Positions 14,474-18,378 of a DNA stretch of 20,376 nucleotides are shown here, piece by piece. Under the pieces are notes generated by a model. That model did no database searches. It was not told where the DNA came from and saw nothing but the letters and a program-made list of their open reading frames with translations. The position numbers and the translations under genes are program-made. Position 1 is the first letter of the stretch; each line of letters starts with the position of its first letter. The stretch is from the IMG/VR virus record IMGVR_UViG_3300050821_017218, positions 1-20,376 of that record; one strand, given 5' to 3'. This DNA is from a virus.

Positions 14474-14480
14474 TATTTAT
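14474..14480 (-). promoter_or_regulatory. Late promoter upstream of the gp16-gp17 spacer gene
   Basis: Minus-strand ATAAATA, in the context GATAAATAG, lies 24 bases before the ATG at 14450 in the 45-base gap after gp16. It is seven of eight to the T4 late consensus TATAAATA. It would give the 328-residue protein and gp17 their own late transcript. Confidence 0.6.
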
Positions 14481-15634: not shown

Positions 15635-17360
15635 TCGTTCCACCGTTCAGAGCGAGATACTGATTGATCGCGGCCAGTGCGACCTGAGCGGTGACCGCGG
15701 CAATGACACCACCCGTATTCGTGCCGCTGGTACCCCCGTATAGAGCCGGATTGTACGTGGCGAACTGCGATACCGCGGGGATGAACTCGGACTGCTCCGT
15801 GAGCGACTGCGCCACGCTGGTGTAATACACGGCCAGATTCGTAGCTGCGGCAGCATCCGTAGGATTGGTTGCGGCTGCCGCCTGTGCAGTAGCGAGGGCA
15901 GCCGCATTCGTGAAGGACTGCGCCGCCGCGATCAGTGCGAGCGGAACCTGATCCTGCTGCTGTTGCACCGCGATGTCGGCCGCGGTCGGACTGGTCGAGG
16001 CCGGTGCAGAAGGTCCGTTCGTGTTCTGCAACGCCGCTACCGTGTTGGCTGCGGCCGAAGTCGTGTCGGGATTCGTCGCCAGCCCGCCCGAGATGGTGGC
16101 GTTTTGGAACTGAGACAATGCGTTGACCTGACCCTGAAGGATGTTGATCTGCTGCTGCCGGGCGGCGATCACGTTCGGATCGACGCCGGGCTGAGACTGA
16201 AGCTGTGCGAACGAAATCTGTGCTGCACTCAGTTGGCCGTTGTAGAACGATAGGGCGGCGCTCGATGAGTTGCCAAAGTTCGTGCCACCAATCGCCACTC
16301 CTAGCGAACTAACGGGAATCGTTGCGCCGAGCGCTCCATTGGTGCCGATGACATTGTAATTGGTCGGATCGGTTACGCTGCCCAGATTCGATGCCGGGAA
16401 CGTCACTCCGCCGCTCTCGGTGAAGATGCTCAAGCCGCCCTGAATACCGCACGCCGCCATACAGGTGGGGTCGGGACCCAAATTGATCGCCCCTTCCTGC
16501 GCGTGCCCGGATGAGGCCGCGTACGCGGGCGAACCTCCGGTCTGTAGCTGCTGATCGATGTTGCCCTGAATCGCGTTCTTGGGCTGACCCGTGCTCAGGC
16601 TGTAGTTCTCGTACTCGAAGATCAGACTAACCTCGACCACACCAGACTCGCCCTGATCCCGATCTTCCGGCTCAACAGCAATGAGCGACGGATTGTAGTA
16701 CGTGTAGATGTTGATCGAATCCGGCTCCGTGCCGAGATCGTAGATGATGATCGATTCGAAGAACATCCGCGAGCACTCGCGGAGCTTCATTCCCAGCGAC
16801 GGACGGGTATCCATCTGGGATCGGATCGTATCCCCGGCATTGCCCGCGAGCGCCTGCACGCCGGTATGGTTGTACGAGAACTTGCTAAATTCCGTGTTGT
16901 ATACGGTTCCCGGATTGGTCTGGCGACGGTCGCCACCGAGTTCACCGGAATAGTTGACGAACGCGATCATGTCCTTGACCAGCGCCATCACCATCGAAGT
17001 CGAATCGTCATAGAACCGCATCGTGAGCGGCTCGTACTCGATCTTCTTCTGGATGTTGTACGTTCGGTTGTATCCGCGAAGCTTATCCGTGACGATCTTC
17101 GGCTTTGGCAGGTCGGTCTTCTTCAGGTTCGAGTAGAGCGTGCCATCTTCGAGAAACGTAGCGACATTCGTCAACATATCGACGACCCCCGGCCCCATGA
17201 CGAACTCGGCGAACCACGTATGCTTGTGACGGGGTGTATTGATGCTGATTCGGGTCGATGTGCCACCGGCATCCGAGCCCCAGCGGCGCAGATTCACGGC
17301 GTAGTTGACGAACGGCCATCCTACTAGCTGTGCTGTATTGCCTACGTTGCTGTTCGCCAT
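15624..17360 (-). CDS. Tail-tube-fold baseplate protein with long Ala/Gln-rich extension
   Basis: This 578-residue protein has a tail-tube-like part at residues 45-258: WFAEFVMGPG (49-58), KKIEYEPLTMRFYDDS (105-120) and FESIIIYDLG...YYNPSLIAVEPED...VVEVSLIFEYENYSLSTG (201-258). This pattern fits the T4 gp48/gp54 family, which caps the baseplate hub and starts tail-tube assembly. Residues 260-578 are different: Ala, Gln, Asn, Thr and Gly-rich, with a helical stretch around 380-420 (QISFAQLQ, NVIAARQQQINILQGQV) and Ala-rich runs near 500-530. T4 gp48 and gp54 (364 and 320 residues) lack this. The ATG at 17360 has AGGGG upstream and a palindromic late promoter about 20 bases before it. The exact T4 counterpart is uncertain. 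Confidence 0.65.
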   Translation of the reverse strand: MANSNVGNTAQLVGWPFVNYAVNLRRWGSDAGGTSTRISINTPRHKHTWFAEFVMGPGVVDMLTNVATFLEDGTLYSNLKKTDLPKPKIVTDKLRGYNRTYNIQKKIEYEPLTMRFYDDSTSMVMALVKDMIAFVNYSGELGGDRRQTNPGTVYNTEFSKFSYNHTGVQALAGNAGDTIRSQMDTRPSLGMKLRECSRMFFESIIIYDLGTEPDSINIYTYYNPSLIAVEPEDRDQGESGVVEVSLIFEYENYSLSTGQPKNAIQGNIDQQLQTGGSPAYAASSGHAQEGAINLGPDPTCMAACGIQGGLSIFTESGGVTFPASNLGSVTDPTNYNVIGTNGALGATIPVSSLGVAIGGTNFGNSSSAALSFYNGQLSAAQISFAQLQSQPGVDPNVIAARQQQINILQGQVNALSQFQNATISGGLATNPDTTSAAANTVAALQNTNGPSAPASTSPTAADIAVQQQQDQVPLALIAAAQSFTNAAALATAQAAAATNPTDAAAATNLAVYYTSVAQSLTEQSEFIPAVSQFATYNPALYGGTSGTNTGGVIAAVTAQVALAAINQYLALNGGTNGS

Positions 17361-17377: not shown

Positions 17378-17389
17378 CTAAATATTTAG
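17378..17389. promoter_or_regulatory. Palindromic, probably bidirectional late promoter
   Basis: CTAAATATTTAG is a perfect 12-base palindrome, so both strands read CTAAATA. Leftward it lies about 20 bases from the baseplate gene start; rightward about 30 bases from the bS21 start. The same CTAAATA occurs before the tail-tube gene. Confidence 0.6.
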
Positions 17390-17418
17390 CCCTCTTGAAG
17401 GGCGGATTGTGGGGTCAT

Positions 17419-17613
17419 GTGCTAGTCAAGGTAATCAACGGCGATATCGAAGGGGCGATCCGCAAAATGAAGCGGGCCCTCCACAACGACGGGCTGATCA
17501 AGGAAGTGCTCCGTCGGAAGGCGTACGAAAAGCCTTCCGAGAAGAAGCGGAGACGCCGGCTCGATGCGATCAGAGAGCATCGCCGCCAGCAGCGACTCCG
17601 CTCAGATCATTAA
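17419..17613 (+). CDS. Phage-encoded ribosomal protein bS21
   Basis: This 64-residue, strongly basic protein reads MLVKVINGDIEGAIRKMKRAL then GLIKEVLRRKAYEKPSEKKRRRR. It aligns with bacterial S21 without gaps in the core: KVRENEPFDVALRRFKRS, then [22 protein letters not shown] in E. coli. S21 binds the 30S platform near the anti-Shine-Dalgarno end of 16S rRNA. Phage copies are thought to replace the host protein and favour phage mRNA. The start is GTG at 17419 after GTGGGG; a TTG at 17407 is possible. The gene is on the opposite strand to its neighbours, and its stop overlaps the tail-tube stop in a shared TTAA. A CTAAATA box 30-40 bases upstream suggests late expression. Confidence 0.85.
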   Translation: MLVKVINGDIEGAIRKMKRALHNDGLIKEVLRRKAYEKPSEKKRRRRLDAIREHRRQQRLRSDH

Positions 17614-18371: not shown

Positions 18372-18378
18372 TATTTAG
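18372..18378 (-). promoter_or_regulatory. Late promoter of the tail-tube gene
   Basis: Minus-strand CTAAATA, in context GGGCTAAATAGAC, lies 40 bases before the GTG at 18332, leaving room for a leader of about 30 bases with AGGAG. It is identical in seven bases to the palindromic box at 17378-17389. Confidence 0.6.

Follow-up and report, generated by a model that had tools for sequence, protein, structure and literature searches.

A perfect 12-bp palindrome, CTAAATATTTAG, in a giant T4-related phage is probably a bidirectional late promoter, predicted from its sequence to carry a gp55-type box (nTAAATA) on either strand; the two interlocked boxes would serve a gene for ribosomal protein bS21 on one side and a gene of the tail-tube family (tube2) on the other. 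The window, that is, the whole stretch of DNA that was analysed, is a 20,376-base fragment of this uncultured phage, and the palindrome lies at 17378–17389, between the rightward bS21 gene (GTG at 17419) and the leftward tube2 (ATG at 17360; Table 1). As DNA, it comprises two TAAATA hexamers that overlap by 2 bp, the plus-strand box standing 34 nt from the bS21 GTG and the minus-strand box 22 nt from the tube2 ATG, both of which are promoter-like distances. The preliminary description, which reported CTAAATA on each strand at a suitable distance from both flanking genes, is confirmed on both points. Its further proposal of a single late-sigma site firing both ways is strongly supported as far as two-way late promotion is concerned, given the hexamer bias, the gp55 homologues, the conserved pair and the L024 junction described below, but what it took for a single site is two overlapping hexamers.

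Table 1. Positions of genes and predicted promoter elements in the window.
Feature	Position	Strand	Remarks
bS21 gene	17419..17613	+	GTG start; GGGG Shine-Dalgarno-like run 17411-17414; PF01165, phrog_21469 E 3.6e-13
tube2, tail-tube-family paralogue, 578 aa	15624..17360	-	phrog_4542 E 3.8e-7; AGGGG 17371-17367 before ATG
tube1, main tail-tube protein, 240 aa	17610..18332	-	phrog_4542 E 4e-45
Palindrome CTAAATATTTAG, two interlocked predicted late-promoter boxes	17378..17389	no strand	Opposed pair kept in relatives
TAAATA, predicted -10/TATA box for bS21	17379..17384	+	Predicted start ~17389-17391
TAAATA, predicted -10/TATA box for tube2	17383..17388	-	Predicted start ~17378-17376
CTAAATA, predicted tube1 late promoter, one-directional	18372..18378	-	TAAATA also ahead of tube1 in cultured relatives
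TAAATA ahead of 13464-14450 gene, predicted one-directional late promoter	14474..14479	-	23 nt to start codon

The rightward gene is bS21, as had been claimed, and belongs to the PF01165 family (Ribosomal_S21; E 1.4e-13, 50.7 bits against a curated cut-off of 27). The leftward gene, previously called a baseplate gene, is not clearly that and is better described as a tail-tube paralogue on its match to phrog_4542; it sits beside the main tail-tube gene (tube1), and in cultured relatives the corresponding genes bear the annotation ‘tail tube protein’. bS21 is a reversed gene between tube1 and tube2, which both run the same way. As the two tube genes adjoin in cultured relatives, the position of a reversed bS21 between them implies that tube2 here needs its own promoter, and if that promoter is common to bS21, then bS21 is a late gene. 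At their other ends, bS21 and tube1 meet tail to tail with stop codons overlapping in TTAA (17610–17613), where no terminator was found in the window and where read-through from tube1 would be antisense to bS21. The bS21/tube1 junction of four relatives (L003, L005, L013, L019) carries a GC-rich hairpin with T/A-rich flanks.

Within the window the palindrome occurs once, even with one mismatch allowed, and none arose in 100 dinucleotide-preserving shuffles. CTAAATA was observed three times against 0.34 expected, two of the three inside the palindrome, and TAAATA six times against 1.6 expected; five of these six run with the structural genes on the minus strand, and the sole plus-strand copy faces bS21. 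A 6-kb search for sigma70 promoters near the palindrome gave a single weak match, which is below the mean for shuffles and does not fall at the site. It is exceedingly improbable that the palindrome is a chance product of AT-rich DNA: a second such palindrome does occur in the L019 genome (L160:11420) at near the chance rate, by a rough estimate, but the shuffles of the window gave none, and one and the same junction is conserved across relatives whose TerL proteins are ~45–55% identical. The second interlocked pair, GATAAATATTTATC (L160:11420–11429; G002:C1:291420), adjoins an open frame with an ATG 6 nt past the box and apparently lies between divergent genes. The bS21 leader of the window also contains a 5-bp hairpin (17389–17403), which was set aside, as no counterpart was seen in the leaders of the relatives.

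The hexamer itself has the properties of a late promoter element across this phage group. Relatives were gathered by TerL, tube1 and bS21 searches, in which alignment-based searches yielded the viral contigs and single-protein scans with tube2 and bS21 yielded none, and they include two large genomes, L019 (G002; 360 kb) and L016 (G001; 376 kb). In both L019 and L016, no hexamer within 70 nt ahead of called genes shows a greater excess of sense over antisense copies than TAAATA (54 versus 12 and 61 versus 15, respectively), and in the large relatives the base preceding it is almost never T while the base following it is C or T at most sites. An ATG stands exactly 5 nt past TAAATA at 9 of 87 sites in G002 and 11 of 83 in G001, with nearly none at 3, 4, 7 or 8 nt, and the general site set has a purine peak at +6 past the box; together, this spike and this peak predict a start 6 bases past the box. 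The TAAATA boxes of this group lie about one turn before the predicted starts and on the strand of their genes, as do the boxes of T4/gp55-type promoters. A gp55-like late sigma is encoded by all five large relatives, L019 and L016 among them (E 1e-17 to 5e-31), the window itself being a 20-kb fragment. For the variant TAAGTA, the upstream counts of sense versus antisense copies (10 versus 4 in one large relative, 2 versus 1 in the other) hint weakly at promoter activity.

T4 late promoters (TATAAATA) depend on gp55, gp33 and gp45 and start transcription about one helical turn past an 8-bp TATA box (PMC2988020). The present phage group shares with T4 the core hexamer, a predicted start at a similar distance, the presence of gp55 homologues (in the relatives) and, by prediction, late transcripts of either polarity, whereas its consensus, [G/C/A]TAAATA[C/T], is without T4's leading TA. 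T4 has a gp45-type sliding clamp and none was detected in relatives of the window phage, where the phrog_223 and PF02916 models were silent, although another clamp family is possible. The T4 genome contains no interlocked or overlapping TAAATA pair. In G002 (C1:141709–143157) and G003 (C1:85670–87118), the gp55-like sigma is encoded in one 508-aa open frame, its halves split by an in-frame insertion of ~330 aa that is possibly an intein, and TerL is interrupted by inserts of ~0.6–1.3 kb, likely introns or inteins, in L019/L020 (8114–11191), L021/L022 and L024.

Conservation of the opposed pair was assessed at 21 distinct bS21/tube2 junctions with both genes visible, and additionally in L002, a contig starting just before the pair. 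Interlocked opposed boxes are present at 17 of the 21, of which 11 are exact on both sides and six carry one mismatch on the bS21 side, mostly as TAAGTA. The preliminary description had named conservation of the palindrome in related phages as a check, and what is conserved there is the opposed pair, with variable spacing: the window has an offset of 4 between its boxes, most junctions have 6, and L017, L019, L063 and L002 have 7, the cores of interlocked pairs being 10, 12 or 13 bp long. When the tube2 box was kept and the remaining intergenic sequence was shuffled (18 testable junctions, 5000 trials), exact interlocked pairs averaged 0.28 with a maximum of 4, against 11 observed among junction rows that are not all independent. 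The bS21-facing boxes of these 11 all lie 32–38 nt from the bS21 start codon. Exact pairs occur in several deeply separated lineages of the tail-tube tree, among them the window, L080, L017, L002 and the groups of L005 and L003. On that tree, the labels for spacing class need 14 changes, which points to repeated change.

The remaining junctions, and those without bS21, help to separate the possible roles of the two halves. The boxes are 69 bp apart in L015/L016, each facing its own gene, and are also separate in L044, with an exact bS21-facing box in either case, while no exact bS21-facing box was found at the L018 and L059 junctions. L024 branches within the bS21 carriers, and its tube1/tube2 junction contains no bS21; there the tube2 box is retained alone, with no bS21-facing box. 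There is no pair in the more distant bS21-less L052, L056, L057 and L058, none between tube1 and tube2 of the cultured relatives, where these genes are adjacent and 11–80 nt apart, and no interlocked pair at the bS21 genes of other phage types. It could be argued that the half facing the tail-tube gene alone is a promoter, the other half being incidental and bS21 being read from another start, and both the confinement of mismatches to the bS21 side in six junctions and the inexact L018 and L059 would suit such an arrangement. We consider it improbable, given the excess of exact bS21-facing boxes over the shuffled expectation at their 32–38 nt distance, the absence of this half where the junction is without bS21 (L024, L052) and its exact retention in L015/L016 and L044 though detached from the tail box. 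A perfect inverted repeat between divergent genes might also be an operator at which a dimeric regulator controls the bS21/tail locus. However, the half-sites take three spacings and can be 69 bp apart, a variability that suits a pair of promoters better than the binding of a dimer and on which we rejected the operator as very improbable; the half-site is, moreover, the hexamer found genome-wide upstream of one-directional genes.

If the palindrome is a two-way late promoter, as we favour, host RNA polymerase with the phage gp55-like sigma would bind late in infection in either orientation, a rightward start giving bS21 mRNA and a leftward start tube2 mRNA. With starts placed 6 bases past each box, the opposite predicted starts are 13, 11 and 10 bp apart for offsets of 4, 6 and 7, respectively, and the opposed −10 elements overlap with predicted starts beside or within the shared element, as in bidirectional promoters of the type described by Warman and colleagues. 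The bases melted for one direction are largely those melted for the other, so that on geometry the open complexes should exclude each other: the transcription bubbles would cover the same bases and one orientation would be open at a time. In offset-6 pairs (12-bp cores), each box ends in the A that is the predicted +1 of the opposite promoter, perhaps the reason this offset is favoured. The window has C at the expected plus-strand +1 and T at the minus-strand one, each preceded by a G, which makes starts at 17389 and 17378 plausible. The predicted leaders are 25–33 nt for bS21 and 15–30 nt for tube2. Points against the two-way promoter are that gp55 was found in relatives and not in the window fragment, the single mismatches of the bS21-facing box at six interlocked junctions, the inexact L018 and L059, the C and T at the expected starts in the window and the silence of the clamp models in the relatives.

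Bidirectional promoters of bacteria and archaea have been described (Warman et al., 2021, cited in PMC12825309) and are common in bacteria, the separations between starts in E. coli being most often 18, 10 and 23 bp (Warman et al., 2026; PMC12825309). As predicted for the phage pair, divergent starts flank a shared −10 sequence, and the opposed bacterial polymerases exclude each other (PMC12825309). There, however, one sigma70 −10 element reads both ways through inherent symmetry (PMC12825309), whereas TAAATA is not self-complementary and the phage pair comprises two dedicated boxes, with variable overlap, for a phage late sigma. As TAAATA has no such symmetry, two boxes must have been brought together, which makes the pair stricter evidence for selection.

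Competition at E. coli bidirectional promoters occurs only when activity in one direction is high, and noise is then also lower (PMC12825309). We can imagine the phage pair as a dosing device, in which strong late activation would allow polymerase competition to fix the ratio of bS21 to tail-tube mRNA and damp its noise, and in that event late ribosomes would be remodelled in step with virion assembly, but we think this rather unlikely. The preliminary description had likewise proposed that a shared site would tie bS21 dose to structural gene expression and set opposite initiation complexes in competition, both of which are possible consequences of the two-way promoter. A variant of the two-way promoter that is bidirectional but uncoupled, with promoters too weak for collision and with compact late timing in place of dose balancing, is a serious possibility that stops a little short of probable. 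In its favour, basal activity was too low for competition in five of five E. coli bidirectional promoters tested (PMC12825309), and a distance of 69 bp between the boxes suffices in some relatives; on the other hand, strong activation, the condition of competition in E. coli, is possible at late promoters of phages, and 17 of 21 junctions stay interlocked although separate boxes are possible.

About 20 late-type promoters in G002 (L146–L163) and G001 (L164–L182) have an ATG exactly 5 nt past TAAATA, and tube2 in L018 and L059 starts in the same way. The mRNAs of such genes would begin at the start codon and, judging by box and ATG position, are probably leaderless; the phages concerned encode bS21 as well. 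The composition of the 30S subunit could affect how well leaderless-looking late mRNAs of this kind are translated.

Phage-encoded bS21 is widespread. In this clade, of which the collection searched appears to contain no cultured member, the predicted promoter would make bS21 late by design, and a conserved, sequence-defined late promoter common to a tail gene offers a direct and testable answer on bS21 timing, for which the natural series of spacings and the bS21-less junction could be used as controls. T4-type late promoters and bacterial bidirectional promoters are both known, yet their combination on a phage ribosomal-protein gene appears to be undescribed: nothing that we found in the literature searched, a search that was not exhaustive, describes a late-sigma promoter of interlocked form. 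Bidirectional promoters would thereby be extended to a phage late sigma.

The bS21 genes of other phages are placed differently. In Bacteroidetes phages, as in the window, bS21 lies within the structural region on the strand opposite to the structural genes, and it is expressed late at a level similar to that of its opposite-strand neighbour (Chen et al., 2022; PMC9723584). Its neighbours there belong to the region of the MCP, protease and portal genes rather than being two tail-tube genes, and as that report makes no mention of promoters, no shared late promoter is proposed in it. The related cultured giant myophages PA5oct, SCTP-2, Atu_ph07 and Phosso (TerL ~35% identical for PA5oct, Atu_ph07 and Phosso) also carry bS21, and in all four tube1 and tube2 are adjacent. 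bS21 runs in the direction of ClpX/ClpS in PA5oct and SCTP-2 and occupies other non-structural regions in Phosso and Atu_ph07, in each case without an interlocked pair. Upstream of bS21 in the latter two we observe TTGACA and, ~17–18 nt further on, a −10-like hexamer that reads TATAAA in Atu_ph07 (L204) and TAGGGT in Phosso (L203), which suggests that bS21 in these two phages may be expressed early from a sigma70-type promoter instead of late.
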